From assembly GCF_037975245.1 (NCBI RefSeq), contig NC_092578.1, forward strand, positions 248,001-312,000: a stretch of DNA of 64,000 bases, given 5' to 3'. The DNA is from Apostichopus japonicus. Its lineage: Eukaryota; Echinodermata; Holothuroidea; Aspidochirotida; Stichopodidae. Both the position numbers and the translations under genes were made by a program. Shown here piece by piece: positions 17,765 through 63,568 of the stretch (the stretch's first letter is position 1; every line of letters starts with the position of its first letter). The notes under the pieces are model-generated. The model was not told where the DNA came from. It worked only from the letters and a program-made list of their open reading frames with translations, and did no database searches.

Positions 17765-17949
17765 ATGGAGAAGGTGCTGGTGATAGAACCATTCAGTGTT
17801 GATTCTCACAAGTTGCTTGTGGACTTCCTTGAGGGCAAATTTGAGACTGTTATCTTTGCCCTTCCTGCCCAGAAATGGCACTGGAAAGCAAGGACAGCTG
17901 CTCTATACTTTGCTCAGATGATTCCAAGCAATCAAGAATTGCAATGCAG
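17765..17949 (+). CDS. GTDC1: GTDC1 coding exon 1
   Basis: Starts at ATG in TTGCAATGGAGAAGG and encodes the N-terminal Rossmann strand (VLVIEPF), SHKLLVDFL and [17 protein letters not shown]. Ends CAG|GTAAAA, phase 2. The Arg codon is completed by the first base of exon 2. Confidence 0.9.
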
Positions 17950-20900
17950 GTAAAATCAACGGCTATTATTACATGGTACCTCTGCTATCCTCAGACTTGC
18001 AACTTTGACTTCCAAATAACAATTACTGTACTAAAAAGTCATAATATATGACTAAACACATTGATATGTCATTTAAAATCAGATCTTATAAGTGTAAGTA
18101 AATGATCCAAACATTTGTGTTACGATAGAATAAAGATAACACATGTTATTTCAAGCATGCAGGATTTTATGTTGTAATGAAATTAATTGAGTATTGAAAA
18201 GTGTTTTCCAAACTTGTTATCCTTGTACCTGATTAGTAGGTTACAATTCCATTTTATCTAACATTAGCAAAGATTCTGCTATGTAAGTTCTAAAGCCTGT
18301 GTGCATTATAGCTGAACCAGAAAAATCGCACGTAGGGAGTGATTGAAACTATACTAGTTCATTTTCAACCTCATTTAAGTCTGTGTTGAGATGTATAGAT
18401 ACTTCAACATATTTTGAACTAGGTTTATTTGTTGGGAAAATTTCTGCACATTGTCCTTTTTCAATGCTAGTTATATTGTTATATATTGCACATATATTGA
18501 AATATATTGCACATATATCCCAGTCTATCAATACTTCCCTATCTGTGAATAAACGCCTGTCTATGAGTACACCCATGTTTATCTTGAGTATGAGCATATA
18601 TTCCTGTCTATGACTTTATCTCTGAGTATGAGCACATTCCTGTCTATGAGTATATCCCTGTCTATAAGTATATCCCTCTCTATGAGTATATCCCTATCTA
18701 TGAGTTTATTTCTGACTGTGATCATATCCCTCTCTATAAGTATATCCCTATCTATGAGTATATCTCTATCTATGAGTTTATTTCTGACTGTGAGCATATC
18801 CCTCTTTATAAGTAAATCCCTATCTATGAGTATATATCTCTATCTATGAGTTTATCTAAATGACGATGAGCACATCCCTGTCTTGGAAAATATCCCTGCC
18901 ATGAGTTTATTTCTGTCTGTGAGCGTATCCTTGTCTATCTGTGAGTATATCCCTATCTATGAGTATATCCCTATCTATGAGTTTATTCCTGACTGTGAGC
19001 ATATCCCTGTCTATCTGTGAGTATATCCCTATCTATGAGTATATCCCTATCTATGAGTTTATTTCTGACTGTGAGCATATCCCTGTCTATCTGTGAGTAT
19101 ATCCCTATCTATGAGTTTATTTCTGACTGTGAGTATACCCCTATCTATTATTATATCTCTCTATCTATGAATATCCCTATCTATGAGTATATAATCCCTG
19201 TCTATGAGTATATCCCAGTCTATGAGTTAATCCCAGTCTATGAGTTTATCACTGTCTATGAGTTTATTTCTGACTATGAGTATATCCCAGTCTATGAGTT
19301 TATCTCTATGAGCACATCCCTATTTGTGAGTATATCCCTATCTATTGTATATCTCTCTATCTATGAATATATCCCTATCTTTGCGTCTATGAGTAACTAT
19401 GTTTCAGTATCTCTTTGTTAACATACCAGACATGGTATGATTTGTACAGTAGTGATTGAGAGCAGGCTATCCCTGTAGATATTTGGCAACCTTAAGACCT
19501 ATTTTTTTCTTTGCATCATTATTGAAAGAGTCTGTTTTCTAAGTGGTTGTGAAATCATTTTTAATTTTATCTTTGTTTTGTAGAACACTATTTGCTAGTT
19601 CAGTTCTAAACTTAGCTGAATTGGTAGCCATGAGACCTGACCTTGCAGGAATGAAGAAGGTATTGTACTTCCATGAAAATCAACTGGTTTATCCAGTGAG
19701 GAAACAACAAGAACGGGACTTTCAGTATGGTTACAATCAGATCATATCCAGGTAAGATAGCAGTTAGATCAAATCTGATTAAGGCTAATTCCGATCTTGT
19801 CATATCAAGGTATGCCAACTTTAATTAGGTCATATCCATGTAACACTACTTGCAATCAGGTCATATCTAAGTGAGAGTAATTGCAATCAGGTCACATCCA
19901 GGTAAGACTAGTTGTAATCAGGTTACATTCAGGTAAGACTTTGCAATCAGGTTACATTCAGGTAAGACTTTGCAATCAGGTGATATTATTCAGGTAAGAC
20001 TTTGCATTCAGGTTATATTATTCAGGTAAGACTAGATGCAATCAGGTTATATTATTCAGGTAAGACTAGATGCAATCAGGTTATATTATTCAGGTAAGAC
20101 TAGATGCAATCAGGTTATATTCAGGTAAGACTTTGCAATCAGGTGATATTATTCGGGTAAGACTTTGCATTCAGGTTATATTATTCAGGTAAGACTAGAT
20201 GCAATCAGGTTATATTATTCAGGTAAGACTAGATGCAATCAGGTTATATTATTCAGGTAAGACTAGATGCAATCAGGTTATATTCAGGTAAGACTAGATG
20301 CTATCAGGTTATATTCAGGTAAGACTACATGCTATCAGGTTATATTATTCAGGTAAGACTAGATGCAATCAGGTTATATTCAGGTAAAACTAGTTGCAAT
20401 CAGGTTATATTCAGGTAAAACTATAGTTGCAGTCAGGTTATATTCAGGTAAGACTAGATGCAATCAGGTTATATTCAGGTAAGACTAGATGCAATCAGGT
20501 TATATTCAGGTAAAACTAAAGTTGCAATCAGGTTATAATCAGGTAAGACTAGATGCAATCAGGTTATATTCAGGTAAGACTAGATGCAATCAGGTTATAT
20601 TCAGGTAAGACTAGATGCAATCAGGTTATATTCAGGTAAGACTAGATGCAATCAGGTTATATTCAGATAAAACTATAGTTGCAATCAGGTTATATTCAGG
20701 TAAGACTAGATGCAATCAGGTTATATTCAGGTAAGACTAGATGCAATCAGGTTATATTCAGGTAAGACTAGTTGCAATCAGGTTATATTCAGGTAAGACT
20801 AGTTGCAATCAGGTTATATTCAGGTAAGACTAGATGCAATCAGGTTATATTCAGGTAAGACTAGTTGCAATCAGGTTATATTCAGGTAAGACTAGTTGCA

Positions 20901-23900
20901 ATCAGGTTATATCCAGGTAAGACTAGATGCAGTTAGGTTATATTCAGGTAAGACTAGTTGCAATCAGGTTATATTCAGGTAAGACTAGTTGCAATCAGGT
21001 TATATCCAGGTAAGACTAGATGCAATCAGGTTATATTCAGGTAAGACTAGATGCAATCAGGTTATATTCAGGTAAGACTAGATGCATTCAGGTTATATTC
21101 AGGTAAAACTAGTTGCAATCAGGTTATATTCAGGTAAGACTAGTTGCAATCAGGTTATATCCAGGTAAGACTAGATGCATTCAGGTTATATTCAGGTAAG
21201 ACTAGTTGCAATCAGGTTATATTCAAGTAAGACTAGATGGAATTAGGTTATATTCAGGTAAGACTAGATGCAATCAGGTTATATTCAGGTAAGACTAGAT
21301 GCATTCAGGTTATATTCAGGTAAAACTAGTTGCAATCAGGTTATATTCAGGTAAGACTAGTTGCAATCAGGTTATATCCAGGTAAGACTAGATGCATTCA
21401 GGTTATATTCAGGTAAGACTAGTTGCAATCAGGTTATATTCAGGTAAGACTAGTTGCAATCAGGTTATATTCAGGTAAGACTAGTTGCAATCAGGTTATA
21501 TCCAGGTAAGACTAGTTGCAATCAGGTTATATTCAGGTAAGACTAGATGCAATCAGGTTATATTCAGGTAAGACTAGTTGCAATCAGGTTATATTCAGGT
21601 AAGACTATTTGTAATCATGTCATATCCAAGTAAGGCTAGCTGCAAGCATATCATATTCAGGTAAGACTAGATGGAATTAGGTTATAATCAGGTAAGACTA
21701 GATGCAATCAGGTTATATTCAGGTAAGACTAGTTGCAATCAGGTTATATTCAGGTAAGACTAGATGCAATCAGGTTATATTCAGGTAAGACTAGTTGCAA
21801 TCAGGTTATATTCAGGTAAGACTATTTGTAATCATGTCATATCCAAGTAAGGCTAGCTGCAAGCATATCATATTCAGGTAAGACTAGATGGAATAAGGTT
21901 ATAATCAGGTAAGACTAGATGCAATCAGGTTATATTCAGGTAAGACTAGTTGCAATCAGGTTATATTCTGGTAAGACTAGATGCAATCAGGTTATATTCA
22001 GGTAAGACTAGTTGCAATAAGGTTATATTCAGGTAAGACTATTTGTAATCATGTCATATCCAAGTAAGGCTAGCTGCAAGCATATCATATTCAGGTAAGA
22101 CTAGATGGAATTAGGTTATAATCAGGTAAGACTAGATGCAATCAGGTTATATTCAGGTAAGACTAGTTGCAATCAGGTTATATTCAGGTAAGACTATTTG
22201 TAATCATGTCATATCCAAGTAAGGCTAGCTGCAAGCATATCATATTCAGGTAAGACTAGATGGAATTAGGTTATAATCAGGTAAGACTAGATGCAATCAG
22301 GTTATATTCAGGTAAGACTAGTTGCAATCAGGTTATATTCAGGTAAGACTAGATGCAATCAGGTTATATTCAGGTAAGACTAGTTGCAATCAGGTTATAT
22401 TCAGGTAAGACTATTTGTTATCATGTCATATCCAAGTAAGGCTAGCTGCAAGCATATCATATTCAGGTAAGACTAGATGGAATTAGGTTATAATCAGGTA
22501 AGACTAGATGCAATCAGGTTATATTCAGGTAAGACTAGTTGCAATCAGGTTATATTCAGGTAAGACTAGTTGCAATCAGGTTATATTCAGGTAAGACTAT
22601 TTGTAATCATGTCATATCCAAGTAAGGCTAGCTGCAAGCATATCATATTCAGGTAAGACTATATGGAATTAGGTTATAATCAGGTAAGACTAGATGCAAT
22701 CAGGTTATATTCAGGTAAGACTAGTTGCAATCAGGTTATATTCAGGTAAGACTAGATGCAATCAGGTTATATTCAGGTAAGACTAGTTGCAATCAGGTTA
22801 TATTCAGGTAAGACTAGATGCAATCAGGTTATATTCAGGTAAGACTAGATGCAATTAGGTTATAATCAGGTAAGACTAGTTGCAATCAGGTTATATTCAG
22901 GTAAGACTAGATGCAATCAGGTTATATTCAGGTAAGACTAGTTGCAATCAGGTTATATTCAGGTAAGACTAGATGCAATCAGGTTATATTCAGGTAAGAC
23001 TAGATGCAATTAGGTTATAATCAGGTAAGACTAGATGGAATTAGGTTATATTCAGGTAAGACTAGATGCAATCAGGGTATATTCAGGTAAGACTAGTTGC
23101 AATCAGGTTATATTCAGGTAAGACTAGATGCAATCAGGTTATATTCAGGTAAGACTAGTTGCAATCAGGTTATATTCAGGTAAGACTAGTTGCAATCAGG
23201 TTATATTCAGGTAAGACTAGTTGCAATCATGTCATATCCAAATAAGGCTAGCTGCAAGCATATCATATTCAGGTAAGACTAGATGGAATAAGGTTATAAT
23301 CAGGTAAGACTAGTTGCAATCAGGTTATATTCAGGTAAGACTAGTTGCAATCAGGTTATATTCAGGTAAGACTAGTTGCAATCATGTCATATCCAAATAA
23401 GGCTAGCTGCAAGCATATCATATTCAGGTAAGACTAGATGGAATTAGGTTATATTCAGGTAAGACTAGATGCAATCAGGTTATATTCAGGTAAGACTAGT
23501 TGCAATCAGGTTATATTCAGGTAAGACTAGTTGCAATCAGGTTATATTCAGGTAAGACTAGTTGCAATCAGGTTATATTCAGGTAATACTAGTTGCAATC
23601 ATGTCATATCCAAATAAGGCTAGCTGCAAGCATATCATATTCAGGTAAGACTAGATGCAAGCATATCATATTTAGGTAATTTGACTAGAATGCAGTTAGG
23701 TTATATCCAAGTTAGACTAGTTGCAATCATGTCTTTTCAAGTTATCGCTAGTTGCAATCATGTCATATCAAGGTAAAACTGTGATGGAAGATAATCTTCT
23801 AGCTAGCTAAAAGTCCATATGTCTATTCCACTATTTACAGAATGTTCCACAGGTGTCTTATTGTTGGTAAATAACCTGGTAAAACAAGCAACACTTTTCC

Positions 23901-26900
23901 AAAGCAAATACATATCTGATTCATATTGAGAGCAAATGACATTTCAAACATACCATAAGCCTACAAACTTTGAAACAGTTTGAACACGGATGTGATATCA
24001 CAGATTCATTTTGTCCAGACTGCCAAATTGTTCCTAGGCGCCTCTGTTGCTGGGTCCTGTTTTTAAAAGAAACATAATGATCCATGACAGTGGTAACAAT
24101 TTGTTAGACTATTTATCTACATCAATGCAGTGTCACTAAAAAAGTATTATGTGATTTATAACAGGGTGCTAAAAGCCAGAAAGTAATCAATAAGCAAACT
24201 CTTCATCAAAGTGCTTTGAAATGATTTGGCAGATAGGCATCTTGTCTCTATGGGGTATGTGGTCCACCTAGATATATGGACACAGATTGAATCTGTCACT
24301 TTAAAACTATATTTGTACCACTATTTAAACATGCACTGAAAAATTTATATTGTCATTCACCTCAAAGGTTCCTAGTAACTCTATATATGAATTTGACAGG
24401 AAATTAAAGGAAAATTAGATCACATATTCCTCCATCCTCTGCAATTTCCCCAGTTCTAACATTTCCTTCTATTTGCAGACTGAACTGTTGTACACATGCC
24501 AGAGCACTGTCTTGTCTTGTCTTGTCTTTTGTATGTATGATGTAAAAAATGGTATGTGAAAAGTATGAGTCACCAGTTGTGATGATCTTGTAAGATGTGT
24601 CAAAGTCAGTTTGAGATTTGTCAGTATCCTTGAATTATTTTTTAAATTTATTTCAGTCTGGTAGCTGATGTTGTCATCTTCAATTCCAGCTACAACATGT
24701 CGTCATTCCTTTCATCAATCCCATCGTTCCTCAACTTGATTCCCGACCACAGACCTCAGAACATTCCCCAGCAAATAACACCAAAGTGTCACGTCATCTA
24801 CCTCCCATTGCCTATCATTAGTTTCCCACATGATGCTATCTGCTCGTTGAAGAAAGTACCAACATATAAGGCTCAACTGCAAGAAGAGCAAGGGAAAAGT
24901 AGCCAAAGAGGAGTTAGTTCCAAGGGTGACAGTTACAGCCCAGTCAAGAGCAAAACTATAGAAACATCATCAGTAACAATAAAGCCTTCACATACCAAGG
25001 ATGATTCTTTGAAGCTAGCTGATGTAGATTTCATTTCAAATATGCAAAAGGCTAATAGTGTAAACCTTCATCAAGAGAGAGAAAGTTGTGAGAATGAAAA
25101 CCATCAAGCCTTCTTGAATCCTGAAGAGATTTTCCTGAAAGATAAAACTGTTGGTGGTCACATATGCAGTGATGTTTCCTCAACACATTCATCGCTCAGG
25201 GAAGGAAAAAGAAGTCAGTTTCTGCACATTGTCTGGCCTCATCGATGGTAAAACTTGACTTGATTATAAAAAAGAATATTCATCTAAGTGTTAGCTGTTA
25301 CCTTTTAAGAGCATTTTAATATCATTCACAAGGTTGGTATTTTGATGGTTTGATATAAGGAAAGCAGTCATTTGTAATTATGTTCTTTAATACACTAAAG
25401 AACATAAGAAAGAAACATTTCCAGGCAATACTTTATCTGTGGAACTAATGGACAAGCATGAAAAACTGAACATGATTTCATGTTTCTTATGTGTGTATGT
25501 TTAGAGTGTTCTAGGACAATCTTCTGCTGTAGAGTTTCTGATTCCACTACTATTACCTCTTATTATGTTTTAGTCTTAAAGTTGAATTGCATTTGAACAA
25601 AGATGCATTTACATGACTGCATTCTGGAATTCCTTAATTTGTCTTGTAGTGATTATGATACAGGATGGTGACTAAAACAAATGGTTTACTAATTGGGACA
25701 TTTGATTATGATAATCCATTCCATCTAAAACAAATGGTTTACTAATTGGTGCATTTGATTATGATACAGGATGGTGTCTAAAAAAATGGTTCACTTATTG
25801 GTGCATTTGATTATTATACTTCATGCTATCTAAAACAATTGGTGTACTAAGTTTTGCATTTCATTATTCAATGAAATCTATACTTCTGCAGGGAACACGA
25901 CAAGAACCCAGAGATGTTCTTTTCTGTTCTTCTCCAACTTCAAGAAGAAGGTTATGACTTCAGACTTTCAGTACTTGGTGGCCAATTTTCCAAAGTACCA
26001 GGTAATTCTATCAGATAGATTTCTGTGTAATATTGCTTCTTTCTTTGTTCCATATAAATTCAGGCATTTGTTTCTTGAGCTTTAGGAAGCAATTTCTAAC
26101 CACTCAGTTTCCCTAGCATGTATTTAAGAAGCAATATAATCATGCCATCCTTAAAGTTTGATACTACGGTTCAAATTTAGTGCATTAATTTAGTGCAAGA
26201 GAACCAGATTATGTTGAAGCAATGGGTTTCTTTGTGGAGCAGCTTTAAGACAAATGGTTAATAAGCTTTGAATGGGTCAGCAGTCGTTACAGTTGCTTGG
26301 AATTTAATTTTGATGGTTGGAGTTGATTGGTGACATGTGACAAATATTTCTTGACAATATGGCTGCACAGCTGTGTAGAGAGAACACAAAACCCAAAGTA
26401 GCACATGTGATCTGAGAATGTGCCATGTACTACACTCAGTATCACATGTGATCTGAGAATCTGCCATGTACTACACTCAGTATCACATGTTATCTGAGAA
26501 TAGGCCATGTGCTACACTCAGTATCACATGTGATCTGAGAATCTGCCATGTACTACACTCAGTATCACATGTGATCTGAGAATGTGCCATGTACTACACT
26601 CAGTATCACATGTTATCTGAGGATCTGCTATGTGCAACACTCAGATGTTATCTGAGAATCTGCCATGTACTACACTCAGTATCACATGTGATCTGAGAAT
26701 AGGCCATGTACTACACTCAGTATCACATGTTATCTGAGAATTTGCCATGTGTTACACTCAGATGTGATCTGAGAATCTGCCATGTACTACACTCAGTATC
26801 ACATGTTATCTGAGAATCTGCCATGTGTTACACTCAGTATCACATGTGATCTGAGGATCTGCTATGTGCAACACTCAGATGTTATCTGAGAATCTGTCAT

Positions 26901-29900
26901 GTACTACACTCAGTATCACATGTGATCTGAGAATCTGCCATGTGTTACACTCAGTATCACATGTGATCTGAGGATCTGCTATGTGCAACACTCAGATGTT
27001 ATCTGAGAATCTGTCATGTACTACACTCAGTATCACTTGTGATCTGAGAATCTGCCATGTGTTACACTCAGTATCACATGTGATCTGAGGATCTGCTATG
27101 TGCAACACTCAGATGTTATCTGAGAATCTGTCATGTACTACACTCAGTATCACATGTGATCTGAGAATCTGCCATGTGTTACACTCAGTATCACATGTGA
27201 TCTGAGGATCTGCTATGTGCAACACTCAGATGTTATCTGAGAATATGTCATGTACTACACTCAGTATCACATGTTATCTGAGAATAGGCCATGTGTTACA
27301 CTCAGTATCACATGTGATCTGAGGATCTGCTATGTGCAACACTCAGATGTTATCTGAGAATCTGCCATGTGCAACACTCAGTATCACATGTGATCTGAGA
27401 ATAGGCCATGTGCAACACTCAGTATCACATGTGATCTGAGAATGTGCCATGTACTACACTCAGTATCACATGTGATCTGAGAATCTGCCATGTACTACAC
27501 TCAGTATCACATGTGATCTGAGAATCTGCCATGTACTACACTCAGATGTGATCTGAGAATCTGCCATGTGCTACACTCAGTATCACATGTTATCTGAGAA
27601 TGTGCCATGTGCTACACTCAGTAGCACATGTGATCTGAGAATCTGCCATGTGCTACACTCAGTAGCACATGGATCTGAGAATCTGCCATGTGTTACACTC
27701 AGATGTGATCTGAGAATCTGCCATGTGCTACACTCAGTATTTAAAACAAGATACAGTATTTAATTAAGATGTCCCATCAATATTGTAGTAGCACATTTAA
27801 CACATTTGTTCTGAAGAATTGTTCCCATTTTATTTTATCATGCATTATCACATGTAGCAATCTCATCACTGATTTTCCTTTCCGATTCCTATTTATTGTC
27901 TTTACTTGAAAGCCATTTTTGCTGATGCTAAGAGGCAGCTAGCATCAAAGATAGCAGACTGGGGTTACCAACCGTCTAAGGACTGCTATTATTCTATCTT
28001 GAGGGAATCAGATGTCGTCGTTTCTACTGCTTACCATGAGTTCCTTGGATTAGCCATGTAAGTCTCACTCATCCCATAGCCAAATCTGGTGAGGATAACT
28101 TACATTCTTACTGGTAAATTTAGAGCTGTAATTAATCACTGCTAGGTGAAGACCATTGCTCCTGTCCTCCCCCATGTAGTTACCACCCTACTTCATGCCA
28201 TCCCATCACTTAATGGTGGCGTTCTAGCTGGATACACTGCTTTCATTCTAGCAGACACTAAACTGAAACACACCTCAACAAGGGTGTTCAAAGTAAAATT
28301 GGATTGTTGCAGTTTGAAGTACTTTTACTGTTCATACCTAGTTGTTCTAGTCAATTTATTAACTCTGCACTAGAGCTTGGGAATATGCCAGTAAGTATAC
28401 ATGCAAATTGGAACATAGTAATGACTGATAAGTTGTGGAAAATACATATTTTCTTTTCTGGTTTAAACCATGGGATTGAGATAATAACTGACACAAAATA
28501 GAAGGAGATATATATGATCTAGTGAACATAGAAATCATAACAAGCGAGCTTGATAGCAGTAGGGAACAAAGAAGCAGAAACATGAATTATTCATTTCTGA
28601 GTTGAGACCATGTCAAGTAAGGGTCCCTATATTAAATATAAGCCTGTTTGCAGCAACATGATGCTGGGAATTAAAGCCCTGACAAGGAATGGTTGCAGTA
28701 GCAGTGTATTTACTTAAATTACAAAGGGAGGAGGATTAAATGAGAGGAAGCAGTTACATTTGCATATATGTTAATATGCACTTTTTTGTTTTCTTTTCAT
28801 TGAAGTTTGCTCTTTAATATTCAGATGAGCTTACACTGTCCTTAGATTTCATGATGAAAAGCTTTAACTGGTTTAAAATAGAATTGAAAAAAGAAGAATA
28901 TTGAACCAAAAAGGGGAAATAGCAGACACGTATGTATCATATAGAAAGGTTTGAACATCAATATGAATTATGCTTAGAGCTAAAGTGAAAGAGGAAATAC
29001 ATGATGGACTAACCATTCTTGGAAATCACTTTACATGCATAAAACTAAATTGCCTGGTACTTGTACCATAGTGTTGTTTCAATAGTTGCTGATATGTTTC
29101 ACTTTTGTTGTGGTTACAAAACTTGAAATGTTACTAAGCTTTGATGCACATATGTTTCCCTTCAGCCTGTTAACATTAACCTTTTTGGCTAAGATAATGT
29201 GTTAGAATCTATTTCCTGTCCAAGGGACTCATTATACTGAGGATGTAACATATTCATGATCACACAGTCACCATCTCCACGCAAGGGGACCTGTGTTAAG
29301 AGTGCATCAGTCATTTGGTTTTCATGCCCAGTCTCTATCTTGGGTGATACCTTTTATACTTCATACATGTTATACTTCATACCTGTTATACTTCATACCT
29401 GTTATACTTCATACCTGTTTTACTTGATACAAAGAGATCTGCCATATGATATTCAGAGATATCTGTTATTCTTAATACCTGTTATACTTAATACCTCTTC
29501 TAATTTATACAAAGAGTCCTGTAATACTTCATAGCTACCTGCTATACTTCATACTTTTTTTTGGCAGACTTCATTTGCATACATAATACATCTGTCATTT
29601 GTTCCATGTATTTCTGTGAAATGAAGATGTTCACTTATATATATTTCAATAAATGTTCATTCTTTCATTTTAGGTTGGAAGCTGCCTTTCTTGGTTGTCA
29701 CCCCCTTTGCCCAAACCGTCTTGTATATCCCGAAATCTTTCCAAGTAAGCCCATACCTTTTCACCAAACTGTTAATTTATATTTCATATTGACATTGACA
29801 GGCAATTTAACATGACAAGGAGAACTTTGTAATTTAGGGAATTGTTATCAGATTCTGTTTCACTTTTGTTTTATTATTTCCAGATTCCTGCCTTTACAAC

Positions 29901-34929: not shown

Positions 34930-35797
34930 GTTGTGTGCATTATGTGATATAGAATGTAATGGTTGTGTGCAGTGTGTGATATAGCATGTAATGGTTGTGT
35001 GCAGTGTGTGATATAGAATGTAATGGTTGTGTGCAGTTAGTGATATAGAATGTAATGGTTGTGTGCAGTGTGTTATATAGAATGTAATGGTTGTGTGCAG
35101 TGTGTTATATAGAATGTAATGGTTGTGTGCAGTGTGTGATATAGAATGTAATGGTTGTGTGCAGTGTGTTATATAGAATGTAATGGTTGTGTGCAGTGTG
35201 TTATATAGAATGTAATGGTTGTGTGCAGTGTGTGATATAGAATGTAATGGTTGTGTGCAGTGTGTGATATAGAATGTAATGGTTGTATGCAGTGTGTGAT
35301 ATAGAATGTAATGGTTGTATGCAGCATGTGATATAGAATGTAATGGTTGTATGCAGTGTGTGATATAGAATGTAATGATTGTGTGCAGTGTGTGATATAG
35401 AATGTAATGGTTGTGTGCAGTGTGTGATATAGAATGTAATGGTTGTGTGCAGCATGTGATATAGAATGTAATGGCTGTGTGCAGTGTGCGATACAGAATG
35501 TAATGGTTGTGTGCAGTGTGTGATATAGAATGTAATGGTTGTATGCAGCATGTGATATAGAATGTAATGGTTGTGTGCAGTGTGTGATATAGAAGGTAAT
35601 GGTTATGTGCAGTGTGTGATATAGAATGTAATGGTTGTGTGCAGTGTGTGATATAGAATGTAATGGTTGTGTGCAGTGTGTGATATAGAATGTAAGTGTT
35701 TTGTGCAGTGTGTGATATAGAATGTAATGGTTGTGTGCAGTGTGTGATTTAGCATGTAATGGTTGTGTGCAGTTTGTGATATAGAATGTAATGGTTG
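34930..35797. repeat. 32-bp satellite, left block
   Basis: Unit is TGTGTGATATAGAATGTAAT followed by GGTTGTGTGCAG, about 27 copies. The minus-strand reading lacks stop codons in all three frames, giving long artificial open frames. Confidence 0.95.
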
Positions 35798-36437: not shown

Positions 36438-37190
36438 AATGGTTGTGTGCAGTGTGTGATATAGAATGAAATGGTTGTGTGCAGTATGTGATATAGAATG
36501 TAATGGTTGTGTGCAGTGTGTGATATAGAATGTAGTGGTTGTGTGCAGTGTGTGATACAGAATGTAATGGCTGTGTGCAGTGTGCGATACAGAATGTAAT
36601 GGTTGTGTGCAGTGTGTGATATAGAATGTAATGGTTGTATGCAGCATGTGATATAGAATGTAATGGTTGTGTGCAGTGTGTGATATAGAATGTAGTGGTT
36701 GTGTGCAGTGTGTGATATAGAATGTAAGTGTTTTGTGCCGTGTGTGATATAGAATGTAATGGTTGTGTGCAGTGTGTGATTTAGCATGTAATGGTTATGT
36801 GCTGTGTGTGGTTCAGCATGTAGTGGTTGTGTGCAGTGTGTGATATAGAATGTAATGGTTGTGTGCAGTGTGTGATTTAGCATGTAGTGGTTATGTGCAT
36901 TGTGTGATTTAGCATGTAGTGGTTGTGTGCAGTGTGTGATATAGAATGTAATGGTTATGTGCAGTGTGTGATTCAGCATGTAGTGGTTATGTGCAGTGTG
37001 TGATTTAGGATGTAGTGGTTGTGTGCAGTGTGTGATATAGAATGTAATGGTTATGTGCACTGTGTGATTCAGCATATAATGGTTATATGCAGTGTGTGAT
37101 TCAGCATGTAGTGGTTGTGTGCAGTGTGTGATATATAATGTAAAGGTTGTGTATGATGTGTGGTATAGAATGTAATTGTTGTGTGAATTC
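36438..37190. repeat. 32-bp satellite, right block
   Basis: Continues the 34930-35797 array with more variants (GATTTAGCATGTAGTGG, GGTTATGTGCAG). Decays near 37140-37190. Confidence 0.92.
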
Positions 37191-40287: not shown

Positions 40288-41148
40288 GGTGACATCCCTA
40301 TGTTCCGACGTCTCTATGTTCCGACGTCTCTATGTTCCGACGTCTCTATGTTCCGACGTCTCTATGTTCCGACGTCTCTATGTTCCGACAAATTGTTTGG
40401 ACTCTAATTTTTTTTGACCAAATTTTATTCTGACCCCATTTGTGACCCAATTTGTCTTCGGACCCCATTTTTTTTGTACCAAAATTTTTTTGGACCCAAT
40501 TTTTCTTTGGACCAAAATTTTTTGGGACCCAATTTTTTTTCGGACCCTATTTTTTTGACCCAATATCTTTTCGGACACCATTTTTTGGACCTAATATCTT
40601 TTTGGACCAAATTTTTTTTGGACCCAATATTTTTAGGGTACCCAATTCTTTTGGACCAAATTTTTTTTGGACCCCAATATCTTTTTGGACCAAAACTTTT
40701 TGGGACCCAACTTTTTTCGGACCCCATTCTTTTGTAACCCAAAATTAGGTCCCAAAAAATAAGGTCCGATAAAAAAATGGGTCCCCAAAAATCGGGTCCA
40801 AAAAATTTAGGTCCAAAAAAATTGGGTCCATAAAAAAATTGGGTTGAACAAAAATTGGGCCCGAAAAAAAATTGGGTCCGAAAAAATGTTGGTCCAAAAA
40901 AATTGGGTCCAAAAAGAATGGGGTCCGAAAAAAATTGGGTCACAAAAAAATGGGTCCGAAAAAATTTTGGTCAAAAAAAATTAGAGTCCAAACAATTTGT
41001 CGGAACATAGAGACGTCGGAACATAGAGACGTCGGAACATAGAGACGTCGGAACATAGAGTCGTCGGAATATAGAGACGTCGGAACATAGAGACGTCGGA
41101 ACATAGAGACGTCGGAATATAGAGACGTCGGAACATAGAGATGTAACC
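40288..41148. mobile_element. Foldback (TU/FB-like) element, 861 bp, 8-bp target duplication
   Basis: Nearly the whole element is one inverted repeat. The outer left arm is six 16-bp direct repeats (CTCTATGTTCCGACGT) and the outer right arm about nine inverted copies. Inner arms are T-rich on the left (GGACCAAATTTTTTT-type units) and complementary A-rich on the right, meeting near 40740. The termini GGTGACATC and, inverted, GGTTACATC are flanked by GTTAATGT on both sides (40280-40287 and 41149-41156). Arms made of short direct repeats are the hallmark of foldback transposons such as Drosophila FB and sea urchin TU. No transposase is encoded; open frames inside are low-complexity by-products. 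Confidence 0.85.
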
Positions 41149-50018: not shown

Positions 50019-50440
50019 GTATGGTATTGTTGCGTGACTGGGTGCGTGTGTGAAACTTGATCAATCATCTGACCACAGCAGAATGAATTCAATGGAGATC
50101 TTCCGTATATTCAGAGTACACTAACAGATAAGGTGTCTGATGGGTCGCTTCCAAGAAGAGAAATATACAATGACATACAACAATTTTAGTGGACTGAAGG
50201 AAGAGTGTCAGAACGGTTCTTGTCATTACATGTTGAGTTTTAGTGTATAAAGTGGTTTCATTCCTTGCCTAAGAAATCTACAGTACGTGGCCGTTTTGAA
50301 TGTGTACATGTGTGTTTATTGATTTTATACTTCGGCTTGCAAACACTAAAATTCATAAAATAAATACCTAACATGAATTTAGGGAAACACAATTCACGAA
50401 GGAAATCCTCATTACGTTATTCGCTTTTCTTTCATTTTAG

Positions 50441-52320
50441 ATGATGCAGAGTGCGTGGCGCTCCTCGAAATTATGGAAATTGGTGCTGACGTCATCGGAG
50501 AGCAAGGATGCCACCTAACATGGGCGGAACTGCGCAATCTGTCTAAAGAGAATCTCAGCTTGAGTTGGACAGTGATTAAAGACAGGGTCGTAGACTACAC
50601 AGAGTTGCCAAGCTACTATTGTGCACTGCTTAATCTCAAGGGATTTGTCCGCTATATGCTAGAGGACGAATCTACGGCAGAAACCATATTTAGAGGCCTT
50701 TTAGAGATAGACAGCGAAAACATTTGTACTCTAGGAAACCTAGCCGTTCTCTGTTATCGGCAGTCTCGACTTGCTGAACACAGAGAATATGAATGTCGCC
50801 TAAGAAAAGTTGTGAAGAGGAAAAGTCCGTTGCTCCGTGCGCGTGCGTATTTCGATCGTGCCCACAGTATTCGACACTTTGAACAAGATAAGCGTAAATT
50901 CACGTACATTCCGTTCATTAAGAAAGCCGTTGAAATAGCAAAGGATGTAGAAGAAAGAGAAAAGAGTGAGTGGCTGTTTGATTTCGGATTAGCTCTTTAT
51001 AGAAAGGACTGTCAGTTAATTGTGGGGCATGGTGCCGAAGCAGCTCTAGAAGCAGGCTTTCGTGAAGCGGCTCGCTGTTTCTATGCAGTCATCCAAACGA
51101 ACAGTTCCTTTCCCGGTAATACGGCCTTAGCTTGGGTTTTTCTTGGAATATTACTGCAGAATCAACGAAGTCGAAAGTTTGAGGTTTCGCTCACAGAAGA
51201 AACACAGTTACACTACTTAAATGCATTGGATTGCTTCAACAAAGCTCTCAGTCTTCAGCCAACTCATCCAATAGTGCTTCGTCGTGTCGGGGCGGAAATG
51301 GTCAAATTGAAGGAATTTGAAAGAGCGAGGACGTTGCTGGACGCCTCTCTTAAACAAGAGAAATCTTGGTTTGCGTACAGACATCGAGGCCTCCTAAACC
51401 TTGCTGTATACGAGGATGGTATCAGAACCAAGGAAAGACATGATAGTTACCTTGTAGAAGCACAGCAAGACTTCGAATCTGCAATCCAAGTTAAACAAGT
51501 GCACGCAGACTTTTCTGATTTAGGTTATGTTTTGTACTTGCGAGGTAATTACCACGCAGCTCTCCATCAGTTCAGTCGTGCAGCAAGATCAGCCTCTGAC
51601 GATAACTTCAACCCTGCAGTAACCCATCGTAGGTGGGCACTTTGTCTGAGAGCCATTCATGAACCCACTGGAGCTTCAAAGCAAGAGGAAAAGGCCAGGG
51701 AAGTTGAAATACACCTTAGCAGACACGCGAATGCAATTGAAGAGGCTTTTCACGGGCATGGTATCAATTGTCAGGGATTTGAATGTGACTTGGAAAGATT
51801 CAACTACTCTGGGGAAGAGAGGCTTGGATTCGTTAATATATTATCTGAAGAGCGCCACCCACTATCACCGATAGGTCATCCCTACATGTCTCTTCCCAAT
51901 CACCATTCAGTCTACAAATATGACTTTTTTGTCAGCTTTTCGCACATTGACCACAAATGGACACTTTTTTTCTTTCGTAAATTAGAAAGAGAACTTGAGC
52001 TCAAAGGCTGCATCCGATATCGCGACTATGAATGTGGAAAGGCTATAGCTGCAAACATTAGCACATCAATCCGAAAATCAGCTAAAATATTAGTCATTAT
52101 CAGCCCAGATTCTCTCAACGACCCTTGGTGTAAGTTTGAAGTGCAAAAATCACACGCTGAGAGTTTAACACGTAACCACGTGAGCTTGATCCCGATTATG
52201 TTACGAATGTGTAAAATACCGGAGGAGTTTGAATTGACCACGTACATAAAATGTCAGGATGGTCAATTCTCTGTGGATGATTGGCACAGACTGAGCAAAA
52301 GTCTGCTTAAGAAAGTCTAG
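50441..52320 (+). CDS. TPR-TIR protein (TTC22/IFIT-like repeats with C-terminal TIR domain)
   Basis: One uninterrupted exon of about 625 codons preceded by acceptor TTTCATTTTAG; ATG 50473 is the first internal Met. Residue numbers below count from the GTG at 50455. Residues ~50-420 form tetratricopeptide-type helical pairs, for example ALDCFNKALSLQPTHPIVL and DLGYVLYLRGNYHAALHQFS, resembling TTC22 or IFIT proteins. Residues ~486-615 are a TIR domain: box 1 YDFFVSFSHIDHKW, BB-loop region RDYECGKAIAANI (RDxxPG with Pro replaced by Cys527), and SLNDPWCKFEV, where Glu562 sits at the position used as catalytic Glu in NAD-cleaving TIRs and also conserved in signalling TIRs. No signal peptide or membrane segment, so it should be intracellular. 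Likely an innate-immune adaptor or effector; whether it signals or cleaves NAD is unknown. Confidence 0.88.
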
Positions 52321-53131: not shown

Positions 53132-56100
53132 TCGTTTCGTTTATTTCACTTTTTTTCTTTTTTTACAATTACATTCACAATAATGTATAATACCAATGTC
53201 AAAGAAAGAAAAAAAGCATGGAAAATCTGAAAAAGCTACGCTTATACACTCATAAAGTGCAGATTCACCATGAACAAATTATATACAATACGCTAACTAC
53301 CCCCCCCCCCCTCCCCCACTTCCCAAACGGGAAGCATAAGTAGCATTATTAAATGTGATAACTTTAACGCATATATTACAAATCATTGTTTAACAAATAT
53401 AGCTTCAGTTGCTTTATGAATATTGATAAGGTTGGTGATTTTTTAAGTTTGGGTTCGAGAGTATTCCAAAATGTGGCACCAGTAAATCTTACAGACTTAG
53501 TATTTAAAACTAATCGTGGGTAATCCAAATGAATGGCAGTTGAGTGTCTAGTGTTATAACTATGGAGTTGATTATTTAAATTAAAAAAAGACTTAAACGG
53601 AGGTGGAAGTAAATCATGAAGATATTTGAAAACAAAGCTTCCAAGTTGGAGTTGATATATGTCAAAAACTGTTAAGATACTTAAATTCTTAAAAATAGGA
53701 GTAGTATGACTAAGATAATCTGATTTGCTAATCAGTCGTATCAACTTCTTTTGGAGCACAAATAGTCTATTCAGATGAACAGTATGCGCATTGCCCCAGA
53801 GAATATTACAGTACGAAAGATGAGGATAAACCAATGTATAATAAAGGGATAACAATACCTGATGAGGAACCTGAAACCTAATTTTATAAAGAATGCCAAT
53901 CGTCTTAGACACTTTAGTACAAATATAATCAATGTGGGTTTTCCAGCTTAAGAGTGGGTCAAGTTGAACTCCAAGGAACTTAACGTTTTCTGTTTCATAT
54001 ATAATTGTATTGTTCAAGATAAGTTTTAGTTTGGGTTTGGTGGAATGGTAAGTGTGAAAAACTATAAAGTTAGTTTTATTGACATTAAGAGACAACTTAT
54101 TAGCACAAAACCAATCTGCAATAGCAGAAAGTTCATTATTTAAAATACGATTATATGCATTCAAATCATTATTCTTAAATAGTATGCTAGTGTCATCAGC
54201 AAAAAGACAAAATTTAAGAATACTTGAACAATTAGGGAGATCATTGATATAAATGAGAAAAAGGAGCGGTCCTAGAATAGATCCCTGAGGAACACCACAA
54301 GTTATATTACAATAAGCTGAAACGTGTTCACCAATAATAACACTCTGTTTACGATCTGATAGGTAATTTCGAAACAACTGTAACGCAAGTCCCCTAATCC
54401 CATAATGACTTAGTTTGTTTAATAATATATCATGATTGACCGTATCAAAAGCTTTTGATAGGTCTATAAATATTCCAAGGGTAGACTGCTTATTATTAAA
54501 ACCAGTAGTAATAAAATCAATGACGTCAAGGCCAGCCATACTAGTTGAACGATTTTGACGAAAACCATACTGATTATCGGAAATTATGTTGTTGCTATTT
54601 AGAAAAGTTATAGTTCTGGAGTAGATAATTTTCTCAATTATTTTAGATAGAGAAGTGAGTACTGAAATTGGTCTATAATTTGACAATTCATCAGTTTTAC
54701 CTGTCTTAAATATAGGTGTTACTCTAGCAAGTTTGGCAGAATTTGGGAATATACCAGTTGATAGTGAAATATTAAAAATATGAGATAATGGCCGGGCAAT
54801 AACATGTGAAATAGATTGTAGAATGCGTACTGATATACCGTCAAACCCAGATGCAGAATTCCTCTTAAGTTTACTGATAATATTGATAATTTCTGAAGGA
54901 TTACTAGGAGACAAAAATAAAGAATTTGTACAAGAGCCTCTTAGGAAATCATTAAACACCGCATTACAAGTAGGAATTTTCTCAGCCAGGGAAGGACCAA
55001 TTAGTGTAAAGAAATCGTTAAATGCGTTTGCAATATCATTGTCATTAGTCAAAACGCTTCCATTGTGATTAATCTTTGAAATTTTGTGTAACTTAGAATT
55101 GTCTGTAATTAGTTTATTAATTATTTTCCATGTTTTATTCAAATTGTTTTTATTATTCTCAAACATATTAAGGTAATATAATTCTTTAGCCTTCCTGGTA
55201 ACACTGGTTGTTTGATTTCTGTAGACTGAATATTTGACTTTATTTTCAGGAGTAGGATTTTTTATATAATTCTTAAATAAATTATTCTTATGTCGAATAG
55301 ATTTCAAAACACCTCTTGTTAGCCACGGTGATGAAAGTCGTCTATTCTTAGAAGTAACTTTTTGTAAAGGGCAGTGCTTATTATAAATAAGTAAGAATGT
55401 ATTGATAAAACCATCATAAGATATGTCAACATCGTTTGTTGAATATAGCCATTCCCAATCTAGACAATCAAGTTCTGCAACTAGGTTAAACAAACTTGTA
55501 GGTGTAATTTTCCTTTTATAAAATACAGAATGGTTATTGCCAGAGTTAGTAGGTTGATTTAAACTTTGAATGTAATAGACTGGTAAATGATCACTTATGT
55601 CAGAAAGTAAAATACCCGAAGTAAATGAACCGATTAAATTATTGCAAAAAATATTATCCAGCAAAGTTGCAGAATTTTCAATAATGCGAGTGGGTTTTGT
55701 AATCAATGGTAAAAAAGAAGATGAGTACAATATATCTAGGAAATTCGTTGTAGTATTGTCGGTACCATACTTTAATAAATCTATATTAAAATCACCCAGT
55801 AGGATTATGTTTTTATTCGTGTTATTAATAGTATCTAATAAAGGAGATAGGTCCTCGATGAAAGTCGGTATTGAGTTTGCTGGGGGACGATAAACTACAC
55901 CAACAATAGTATTTTTACTCTTATTTGAGATTATTTCAACAAACATTGATTCAAAATTATTAGAATTGTGCATTAGGTCATCCCGAATAATATAATTAAT
56001 ATGGCTTGCAATATAAAATCCAACACCACCACCTCTTTTGTTAGGTCTATCACGATTAATGAAGTTATAATTAGGAATGGACAACATTTGTACTGGTGTA

Positions 56101-56335
56101 TTAGGCTCTAACCAAGTTTCAGTTATAGCTACAATATCAAATGGACACTGTGAAAGTAATTGACTTATATGATCATGGTTTTTCCATAAACTGCGGCTAT
56201 TTATGTGAATAAAGCTAATTGTGGCAGAATTACATAATTTAGTGGAGAGATCTGTAATTGCAATATATTGTGAATTTGGAGATCCATTGTCGGTTAAATT
56301 TAAGTTATCATTATTATCACTTAAAGTATTATATT
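53132..56335 (-). mobile_element. 5'-truncated CR1/L2-like non-LTR retrotransposon (LINE)
   Basis: The element lies on the minus strand between two halves of a host duplication. ATATT occurs on both sides (53127-53131 and 56336-56340) and may be a short target duplication. The 3' end after the stop codon (53132-53375) carries G/C and A-rich tracts and ends in a GAAATAAACGAAACGAA-like tail rather than poly-A, as in CR1-group LINEs. The 5' end is cut within or just before the endonuclease; no ORF1 is present. Confidence 0.9.
53376..56333 (-). CDS. LINE ORF2: AP-type endonuclease and reverse transcriptase
   Basis: A stop-free frame of 985 codons from the truncation point to TAA at 53376; the first Met in frame is at 56087, but coding similarity begins upstream (FIHINSRSLW, VAITETWLEP). 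Endonuclease motifs: ITETWL, VYRPP, LLGDFNIDLL and DISDHLPVYY. Reverse transcriptase motifs: RPISVLTSLSKIIEKII, GFRQNRST, FIDLSKAFDTVNHDILL (motif A Asp), GVPQGSILGPLLFLIYINDL (motif B), CLFADDTSILF (catalytic FADD), NVNKTNFIVFH and VKFLGVQLDPLLSWKTHI. All catalytic Asp residues are present and no frame breaks are seen, suggesting a young insertion. The element is probably not autonomous because its 5' end is missing. Clade assignment within the CR1/L2/Daphne/Crack group is uncertain. Confidence 0.93.
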   Translation of the reverse strand, partial: YNTLSDNNDNLNLTDNGSPNSQYIAITDLSTKLCNSATISFIHINSRSLWKNHDHISQLLSQCPFDIVAITETWLEPNTPVQMLSIPNYNFINRDRPNKRGGGVGFYIASHINYIIRDDLMHNSNNFESMFVEIISNKSKNTIVGVVYRPPANSIPTFIEDLSPLLDTINNTNKNIILLGDFNIDLLKYGTDNTTTNFLDILYSSSFLPLITKPTRIIENSATLLDNIFCNNLIGSFTSGILLSDISDHLPVYYIQSLNQPTNSGNNHSVFYKRKITPTSLFNLVAELDCLDWEWLYSTNDVDISYDGFINTFLLIYNKHCPLQKVTSKNRRLSSPWLTRGVLKSIRHKNNLFKNYIKNPTPENKVKYSVYRNQTTSVTRKAKELYYLNMFENNKNNLNKTWKIINKLITDNSKLHKISKINHNGSVLTNDNDIANAFNDFFTLIGPSLAEKIPTCNAVFNDFLRGSCTNSLFLSPSNPSEIINIISKLKRNSASGFDGISVRILQSISHVIARPLSHIFNISLSTGIFPNSAKLARVTPIFKTGKTDELSNYRPISVLTSLSKIIEKIIYSRTITFLNSNNIISDNQYGFRQNRSTSMAGLDVIDFITTGFNNKQSTLGIFIDLSKAFDTVNHDILLNKLSHYGIRGLALQLFRNYLSDRKQSVIIGEHVSAYCNITCGVPQGSILGPLLFLIYINDLPNCSSILKFCLFADDTSILFKNNDLNAYNRILNNELSAIADWFCANKLSLNVNKTNFIVFHTYHSTKPKLKLILNNTIIYETENVKFLGVQLDPLLSWKTHIDYICTKVSKTIGILYKIRFQVPHQVLLSLYYTLVYPHLSYCNILWGNAHTVHLNRLFVLQKKLIRLISKSDYLSHTTPIFKNLSILTVFDIYQLQLGSFVFKYLHDLLPPPFKSFFNLNNQLHSYNTRHSTAIHLDYPRLVLNTKSVRFTGATFWNTLEPKLKKSPTLSIFIKQLKLYLLNNDL

Positions 56336-61800: not shown

Positions 61801-63568
61801 AGACAAGGTACCTCCAATCCCAACATTTTTCTCAAACACATCTGAAATGGGCATACCTCCATAGAGGAGTTCCTGGCCTCTCTCATCCACAATACTTGTC
61901 ATAAATGATGCAGGTTTACGAATTAAGCCAAGTTCCTAACAAGAAGTAAAATATAAAATGGATTATCACTCTCATGACCAGCATAAACAGGTTTAATCAT
62001 TAGCATGTTCAAAGACTACTCTGGACATGAGATGAAGTATACACCTGTAATCTAAGACTTGTTGAAGTATGCTCTGGCCAACTTAAGACAATGAAAAATG
62101 TACTTTACAGGCTGATCTGTGAAAGGAAATCGTTTGCTAACCAGAAAGCATAAATATAGTTAATGCTTTATTGGTAATAAGTTCAAACTGCAAGAAATTA
62201 TAATCTTGTAAATACCTACAATGAAATTTCTACTAGAAACCATAATCTCACATCCCAGTCAGCTTCAAAATGTGGTCTCAAAGTATGCAAATATCCTGTG
62301 CAATCCACACAGTCAAGACAAAAGTACTGTATCAACTGCTATAAGTTGCTTAATGTAGACAGAGTATAGAGGGAGAACTATGGATATAATTAGGATATAC
62401 TGACTTACTATTGCCAAGTTGAAGTCCATTGGTACTGTAGGTGGACTAGAGAGGGAGAACTATGGATATATTGAGGATATATAGACTTACTCTTGCCCAG
62501 TTGAAGTCCATTGGTACTGTAGGTGGACTAGAGAGGGAGAACTATGGATATATTGAGGATATATAGACTTACTATTGCCCAGTTGGAGTCCATTGGTACT
62601 GCAGGTGGACTAGAGAGGGAGAACTATGGATATAATTAGGATATACTGACTTACTATTGCCCAGTTGAAGTCCATTGGTACTGTAGGTGGACTAGAGAGG
62701 GAGAACTATGGATATATTGAGGATATATAGACTTACTCTTGCCCAGTTGAAGTCCATTGGTATTGTAGGTGGACTAGAGAGGGAGAACTATGGATATATT
62801 GAGGATATATAGACTTACTCTTGCCCAGTTGAAGTCCATTGGTACTGTAGGTGGACTAGAGAGGGAGATTTATGGATAAATTGAGGATATATAGACTTAC
62901 TCTTGCCCAGTTGAAGTCCATTGGTACTGTAGGTGGACTAGAGAGGGAGAACTATGGATATAATTATGATATACTGACTTAATCTTACCCAGTTGTAGTC
63001 CATTGGCACTGTAGGTGGACTAGAGAGGGAGAACTATGGATATAATTAGGATATACTGACTTACTATTGCCCAGTTGAAGTCCATTGGTACTGTAGGTGG
63101 ACTAGAGAGGGAGAACTATGGATATAATTAGGATATACTGACTTACTCTTGCCCAGTTGTAGTCCATTGGTACTGTAGGTGGACTAGAGAGGGAGAACTA
63201 TGGATATAATTAGGATATACAGACTTACTCTTGCCCAGTTGAAGTCCATTGGTACTGTAGATGGACTAGAGAGGGAGAACTATGGATACAATAAGGATAT
63301 ACTGACTTAATCTTGCCCAGTTGTAGTCCATTGGTACTGTAGGTGGACTAGAGAGGGAGAACTATGGATATAATTAGGATATACTGACTTACTATTGCCC
63401 AGTTGAAGTCCATTGGTACTGTAGGTGGACTAGAGAGGGAGAACTATGGATATAATTAGGATATACTGACTTACTCTTGCCCAGTTGAAGTCCATTGGTA
63501 CTGTAGGTGGAGGTACCTCAGGCTGAGGGACAATCTTTCCTTCTTCAACAAGCTGATTATAAACCTCA
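58740..63568 (-). CDS. ACLY: ATP-citrate lyase (ACLY), C-terminal eight exons, gene continues off the right edge
   Basis: Coding exons in transcript order: 63568-63475, 61935-61781, 61107-60957, 60559-60416, 60128-60015, 59586-59504, 59361-59285, 58831-58740 (910 nt, about 302 residues). All junctions are GT-AG and phases agree. ACLY is the cytosolic enzyme that makes acetyl-CoA and oxaloacetate from citrate, CoA and ATP. This part is the citrate-synthase-homology (citryl-CoA lyase) domain. Its catalytic residues are present: [13 protein letters not shown] (human His900), [10 protein letters not shown] (His975) and LNVDGVIG (Asp1026). The C-terminus [20 protein letters not shown] and SYILPE ends close to the human one. 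The intron between the first two exons contains an array derived from the first exon's end. The N-terminal ~800 residues are outside the window. Confidence 0.95.
58860..59270. repeat. GATA/GTAGATA microsatellite array in the last ACLY intron
   Basis: Irregular repeats of GATAGTTGTAGATAGATA fill almost all of the intron between 58832 and 59284, beginning shortly after the splice donor of the preceding exon. Confidence 0.93.
59285..59361 (-). CDS. ACLY: ACLY exon (penultimate)
   Basis: Encodes [26 protein letters not shown]. Acceptor TTCTTACAG, donor CATTG|GTAAGC, phase 1. Confidence 0.93.
59504..59586 (-). CDS. ACLY: ACLY exon with catalytic Asp
   Basis: Encodes [20 protein letters not shown] and RNCGAFT; the Asp of NVDG corresponds to human Asp1026. 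Acceptor TTGAATAG, donor CAAG|GTAATT, phase 2. Confidence 0.93.
60015..60128 (-). CDS. ACLY: ACLY exon
   Basis: 38 codons including [38 protein letters not shown]. Acceptor TTCTACTAG, donor TAAG|GTAAAT, phase 0 at both ends. Confidence 0.92.
60416..60559 (-). CDS. ACLY: ACLY exon with catalytic His (GIGHR)
   Basis: 48 codons, [20 protein letters not shown] through [10 protein letters not shown]; its His matches human His975. Acceptor TTTTCTTCCAG, donor AAATCT|GTAAGT. Confidence 0.94.
60957..61107 (-). CDS. ACLY: ACLY exon with catalytic His (ADHG)
   Basis: Encodes [39 protein letters not shown] and [10 protein letters not shown]; the ADHG His matches human His900. Acceptor TTCCATCAG, donor CTATT|GTAAGT. 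Confidence 0.94.
61108..61780 (-). other. ACLY: ACLY intron, nothing notable
   Basis: Single-copy AT-rich intron with a C-rich tract near 61564-61600. Confidence 0.6.
61781..61935 (-). CDS. ACLY: ACLY exon
   Basis: Encodes [39 protein letters not shown] and SLLWFQR. Acceptor TTCTTGTTAG; donor GAAG|GTTGGT is a GT donor with a weak consensus. Phase 2 at the end. Confidence 0.93.
62395..63474 (-). repeat. 82-bp minisatellite derived from the ACLY exon end and splice donor
   Basis: About 13 units. On the minus strand each contains TTCTCCCTCTCTAG, then a 37-nt piece ending with the real exon's last 36 bases (TACAGTACCAATGGACTTCA, ACTGGGCAAGA), then GTAAG. Thus each unit has a pyrimidine-AG acceptor-like site, an exon fragment ([11 protein letters not shown] in frame) and a donor. 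The array abuts the true exon at 63475 with its own donor in the same register, so it arose by tandem duplication of that junction. Some units have GTAAG with one change (AATAGTAAG, AAGATTAAG). Confidence 0.95.
63475..63568 (-). CDS. ACLY: ACLY first exon in the window
   Basis: Encodes [20 protein letters not shown] and [11 protein letters not shown], matching the human region [19 protein letters not shown] that links the CoA-ligase part to the citrate-synthase-homology domain. Acceptor TTATTTCCATTAG, donor GCAAGA|GTAAG, phase 0. Upstream exons are beyond the window. Confidence 0.94.

Follow-up and report, generated by a model that had tools for sequence, protein, structure and literature searches.

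A 31-base-pair minisatellite carrying copies of the exon 2 splice donor in GTDC1 of the sea cucumber Apostichopus japonicus

The window analysed here is a 64,000-nucleotide (nt) stretch of the genome of the sea cucumber Apostichopus japonicus (RefSeq assembly GCF_037975245.1, contig NC_092578.1, positions 248,001 to 312,000 of the forward strand). It contains seven exons of GTDC1 (also known as QTMAN, tRNA-queuosine alpha-mannosyltransferase), which in the exon model give a spliced product of 463 residues. The top match of this protein is an A. japonicus protein that is 97% identical across 59% of the query. Intron 2 of GTDC1 is 4,905 nt in length, and 81% of it is occupied by a tandem array of a 31-base-pair (bp) unit that evidently copies the end of exon 2 together with its splice donor. 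The exon 2/3 junction is crossed as predicted by the A. japonicus protein P0004, which spans exons 1 to 3, and by the Holothuria leucospilota protein P0005. Features are listed in Table 1.

The initial annotation of this stretch proposed that copies of the exon 2 end plus donor follow one another in tandem downstream of a GTDC1 exon, and this was borne out: Tandem Repeats Finder (TRF) reports 126.8 copies of a 31-bp unit, and the array shares 25 of 31 positions with the 31-mer at the exon boundary. The extent needed correction at one side only, as exon 2 begins at the proposed start, 19584, and the TRF array at 19823; the end at 23780 stands. Wraparound alignment from 19752 gave 130 units, of which 129 are complete and were divided into 121 core and 8 edge units; 123 of these 129 have GT where the donor falls. 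The motif CAGGTAAGA is confined to 19748-23799, where it is present 103 times (once as the real donor, at 19749, then in 102 perfect copies); both strands of the rest of the window lack it. It had been claimed that nearly every unit keeps CAG/GTAAGA (slash, exon/intron boundary). Most do, but the perfect form is kept in about 80% of units. Lags of 217, 372 and 155 bp are seen in the 3' half of the array at 86-88% identity, and amplification there involved seven-unit and five-unit blocks. A two-unit probe of the array has at least 76 matches in the genome (a lower bound, as very common words are skipped by the search), all of which fall inside the GTDC1 array, and there is thus no evidence for a dispersed repeat family.

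The similarity between exon 2 and the unit is greater than chance would provide. None of 91,684 control 31-mers (overlapping, both strands, from non-repeat sequence of the window) reaches the 25 of 31 identities of the boundary 31-mer, the best having 23, and a chance resemblance is ruled out on this basis. The 22 exonic nucleotides alone match the array at 19 of 22 positions, compared to a best of 18 among 92,238 controls. By its sequence, the array unit is evidently a copy of the exon 2 end plus donor. The polarity likewise runs from exon to array, because edge units keep the C of the exon at two columns (6 of 8 units at each), whereas the core has mostly T (C in 19/121 and 14/121). Exon 2 encodes the stretch GYNQIIS, the Holothuria counterpart of which is GYNQILS; the exon is therefore older than the array.

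Table 1. Positions of GTDC1 exons, the 31-bp array and the ACLY boundary array in the window.
Feature	Position	Strand	Evidence
GTDC1 exon 1, start codon to donor	17765..17949	+	tblastn vs human GTDC1, 53% identity, residues 3-57; exon model; A. japonicus protein P0004 concordant
GTDC1 exon 2, evident source of the repeat unit	19584..19751	+	Pfam QTMAN_N, E 3.2e-22; 80% identity to human GTDC1, residues 60-115
Founder segment, 22 nt at the end of exon 2 and 9 nt at the start of intron 2	19730..19760	+	real donor CAG/GTAAGA at 19749-19757
Degenerate 5' edge of array	19761..19901	+	damaged units start at 19779, 19810, 19840 and 19871; wraparound alignment
31-bp tandem array, GTDC1 intron 2	19823..23780	+	TRF, 126.8 copies, 88% matches
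GTDC1 exon 3, next acceptor	24657..25247	+	Pfam QTMAN_N, E 8.3e-16; exon model
GTDC1 exons 4-6	25892-26001, 27913-28057, 29674-29744	+	exon model
GTDC1 exon 7	29884 to stop near 30006	+	exon model
Donor-boundary array at ACLY, 14 units of 82 bp counting the original	62368..63511	-	units are ACLY exon 3' end (some variants) plus intron; TRF, reading frames
ACLY exon with repeated 3' boundary	63475..63568	-	protein support

A per-position comparison of the units was made, as the initial annotation held the donor to be selectively conserved while other bases vary. The array units have been copied from one another, and the cells of the alignment are therefore not independent events. Eight distinct variant types are found in the nine donor columns and 21, including two gaps, in the 22 other columns; for substitution types only, the comparison is 8 to 19 (Fisher P 1.0). 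In the edge units, which lie outside homogenisation, 18 of 72 donor cells and 43 of 176 other cells are changed (P 1.0). Four of the six variants seen once are in the donor, and seven non-donor columns (6, 7, 11, 12, 18, 23 and 25) have no substitutions in the core. Donor and non-donor positions have thus changed to a similar degree, and all three counts (variant types, edge units, variants seen once) reject selection on the donor columns, although raw core frequencies (discussed below) lean the opposite way. The uniformity of the units is explained by recent higher-order (217- and 155-bp) amplification. Inheritance alone can account for a motif that recurs strikingly through an array.

Use of an internal donor would have the same outcome wherever it occurred. 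Any extension beyond the first donor reads TCC AGG TAA, an in-frame stop, and every internal donor leads to the same truncated protein ending at residue 118. Extension of the exon in 31-nt steps, as had been suggested, is possible, but each extension opens with this TAA and yields the identical 118-residue product. In a protein search for the truncated form (candidates of approximately 65-206 amino acids), no near-identical full-length match was present among the 120 of 255 matches listed, where the top identity was 68% at coverage of at least 97%; this is a weak negative, as transcripts of the gene may be missing from the collection.

We consider it very probable that the array is a tolerated boundary minisatellite with passenger donors and not a maintained device. 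By its sequence, the minisatellite was born of a tandem duplication of 31 bp across the exon 2/intron 2 boundary, and growth followed via repeated local and multi-unit duplication, the 217- and 155-bp periods of which are observed. The similar mutation spectra of donor and other columns suggest that the donors are passengers descended from the real one. A duplication across the donor leaves the exon and its donor intact upstream of every copy, and this may be how the array persists: if the first donor is taken, the whole array would leave with the intron. An internal donor leads to the immediate TAA and probably to mRNA decay, so that selection would act on the choice of the first donor and not on the copies, which would be neutral. 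In the best reading, the first donor is used because every internal donor brings an immediate in-frame stop.

GTDC1 does not have the only duplicated exon boundary in this region. The minus-strand ACLY exon in Table 1 has an 82-bp array at its 3' boundary, and its end recurs, with 18 or more of 21 matches, in 13 other places. The end of a second ACLY exon, GGCAATGATCTATCCATTCGT/GTAGGT, in the adjoining 10 kb has one copy 51 nt downstream (20 of 21 matches; the copy lacks the GT). Elsewhere, in a genome sample of 210 kb taken at round positions on eight chromosomes, the array at L008 8081-8763 (94 bp x 7) has ACTGTAG/GTAAGT in all of its units, and its first copies are entered by an open frame; it is a probable boundary array, and the open frame has no Pfam match. 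Other introns of ACLY also hold tandem repeats. The last one (58850-59273) is nearly all CTATCTACAACTATC-type repeat, from approximately 11 nt past the donor to approximately 20 nt before the last exon. The intron following the exon that ends in AAGATCAA/GTGAGT (L030, C18:312001-322000) is mostly array, with units of approximately 36-50 bp plus longer periods; by TRF this array starts approximately 33 nt past the donor, and the exon is not reached.

The frequency of boundary duplication was estimated from the terminal 21 nt of GTDC1 and ACLY exons, with recurrence defined as at least 18 of 21 matches within 5 kb. (A symmetric 30-mer boundary scan picked up the ACLY array alone, GTDC1 falling short at 21/30, and exon-end 21-mers were used instead.) Exon 3' ends recur downstream in 3 of 20 cases, compared to 0 of 21 for 5' ends upstream and 0 of 17 for exon middles on either side. 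Among random 21-mers, a downstream recurrence is seen for 895 of 4000 overall and for 45 of 4000 of those outside arrays. The 3/20 is above the non-array background (P 0.0014) but not above the ambient rate (P 0.31), and 3' ends do not differ clearly from 5' ends (P 0.11). Because 3/20 is no higher than the ambient rate, tolerance at donors together with purging inside exons suffices. We read the pattern as tolerance, in which duplications within exons are purged by selection and those across donors are kept since the upstream copy remains intact.

The genome has an abundance of minisatellites: they make up 26.4% of the window and 13.0% of the 210-kb sample, or 8.6% when L009 is left out; the whole of this 10-kb piece (L009 1-10000) is a 461-bp satellite with 97% matches. 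When the 53 arrays found in the sample and the window were scored by donor frequencies, donor motifs at 8 bits numbered 5, against a mean of 3.84 in random draws of non-repeat sequence. At 11 bits there are 2 (the GTDC1 array and L008) against 0.42, and 8 of 100 draws are as high. Genome-wide, triplets of AGGTAAG number 966+592 (1558) versus 619+633 (1252) in a reversed control, with approximately 67 of the 966 forward matches contributed by the GTDC1 array, and triplets of CAGGTAAGT number 24+5 (29), at five places, versus 10+18 (28); these are counts of overlapping matches, not of arrays. The triplets give a mild excess or none, and a general enrichment of donor motifs in arrays is not clear. 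The source of 24 of the 29 CAGGTAAGT matches is a 45-bp array at G000:C9:2047752-2049917, many units of which have this full consensus donor. Of other candidates, L035 was rejected as a donor array as it is antisense to a kinesin gene, and arrays at L010 (acceptor-like) and L014 were weighed and are not claimed. One myosin exon and one kinesin exon with long open frames have no array at the exons.

The window contains several further elements. At 40298-41141 there is a large inverted structure with a 16-bp repeat (CTATGTTCCGACGTCT) on the left, its reverse complement on the right, and TTTGGACCCAATTT-type repeats plus their complement in the interior; it resembles a foldback element whose ends are tandem repeats. 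One 32-bp unit forms two arrays approximately 640 bp apart (34930-35797 and 36438-37185), with long minus-strand open frames. A 985-residue open frame on the minus strand at 53379-56333 belongs to a non-long terminal repeat retrotransposon (endonuclease and reverse transcriptase by Pfam), and a single open frame at 50383-52317 encodes TPR repeats and a C-terminal TIR domain.

A number of observations weigh against the tolerated-minisatellite reading. In the core, cells that differ from the consensus make up 33/1089 (3.0%) in donor columns and 210/2662 (7.9%) in the others, so the proposed contrast between a conserved donor and variable other bases does hold for raw core frequencies, if not for variant types, edge units or unique variants. 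A single T/A column supplies 65 of the 210 non-donor differences, and without it the other columns stand at 5.7%; the donor window is the fourth lowest in variation among the 31 circular nine-column windows. P0004 and P0005 are database gene models and not complementary DNA; the 2017 A. japonicus genome paper gives transcript support for 92.73% of gene models (PMC5638244), among which P0004 may or may not be. The 3/20 test starts from the finding itself, and with GTDC1 excluded the result is 2/19 (P 0.019). The boundary sample is also small, and the test was devised with all three duplicated ends already known. No copies of exon ends were found at twelve kinesin exon loci, where the query extended the Pfam match by 100 nt to either side and exact exon ends were not mapped, which brings the total to 3 of 32 exons; at the kinesin loci L031 and L032 the off-diagonal BLAST matches are TA- and CA-type microsatellites.

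The lower raw variation at core donor columns would also suit a functional decoy, in which the donors bind U1 small nuclear ribonucleoprotein (U1 snRNP), and unproductive use of internal donors dampens or tunes GTDC1 splicing, with output set by array length. The 102 perfect donors that follow the real one, and the identical truncated frame that each produces, are consistent with such a role, but variant types, edge units and unique variants give no support to donor selection, and the truncated product is absent from the 120 of 255 protein matches listed (a weak negative, as noted); we regard a decoy as decidedly improbable. Its quantitative form, a rheostat in which approximately a hundred identical donors vie with the real one for U1 and GTDC1 output drops as the array grows, is highly doubtful; if true, it would provide natural between-animal variation in tRNA queuosine mannosylation. 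The many potential U1 sites might instead shield a long intron from premature polyadenylation (telescripting), as had been proposed, but there is little to act on: the 4,905-nt intron has no AATAAA and one ATTAAA, neither signal is found inside the array, and most of the length to be protected is the array itself. This we consider extremely unlikely.

It is also quite unlikely that exon 3' ends are a true duplication hotspot, coupled for example to transcription or splicing, at which donor arrays arise more often. The absence of recurrence at 5' ends and exon middles and the excess over non-array background favour this idea, which the ambient rate of recurrence, the comparison of 3' with 5' ends and the unclear enrichment of donor motifs (53 arrays; both triplet counts) do not. 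Finally, tandem arrays are hard to assemble and this one is known here from one assembly, so that its copy number could be inflated. However, the published chromosome-level A. japonicus assembly (671.60 Mb, 23 chromosomes and 34 scaffolds; PMC10344927) was built from PacBio HiFi and Hi-C data, the diverged units are ordered in higher-order blocks, so reads can be placed, and the ends degenerate like those of true minisatellites; an artefact is most improbable. The locus also puts 5' splice-site choice to an extreme test in nature, as 102 identical decoys follow the one real donor and any wrong choice brings a stop codon. Should the first donor indeed be the one used, splicing must depend on something other than donor sequence: order, exon definition or timing.

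Known systems resemble the GTDC1 array to different degrees. The ordinary intronic minisatellites of the window have similar periods, some with higher-order periods, but unlike the GTDC1 array they mostly have no exon end that could be found in the unit (3 of 20 exon 3' ends are duplicated). Intron gain through tandem duplication of AG/GT proto-splice sites, as described in PMC2891723, also involves a tandem duplication bearing splice signals within a gene; there, however, a new intron arises within an exon, whereas the GTDC1 intron pre-exists and only grows. The closest likeness is to the amphioxus 'mirage' minisatellites of Adh3, the globins BflGb6 and BflGb9, TnC and PGBD5, for which normal splicing is reported (PMC3087553 and PMC3902484). 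Both systems have a unit across the exon/intron boundary (22 exonic and 9 intronic nucleotides in GTDC1) and AG/GT signals kept in many units, the unit range of Adh3 (10-72 bp) takes in the 31 bp of GTDC1, and several genes are hit, here GTDC1 and two ACLY exons, all with protein support. They differ in scale (approximately 125 units with 102 perfect donors here, compared to 6 and 3 units in two BflGb6 haplotypes) and in the evidence at hand, since mirages are reported to splice normally and to show length or somatic instability, and the GTDC1 array is known from DNA sequence and gene models. A literature search, mostly at title level, found no tandem donor arrays outside amphioxus. The occurrence in an echinoderm and not a cephalochordate is a difference in the place of description, not in mechanism. 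By its anatomy, the GTDC1 array is evidently a boundary minisatellite of the mirage kind and would work like one, and exon-boundary minisatellites would thereby extend from amphioxus to an echinoderm, with three protein-supported exons in one 74-kb stretch.

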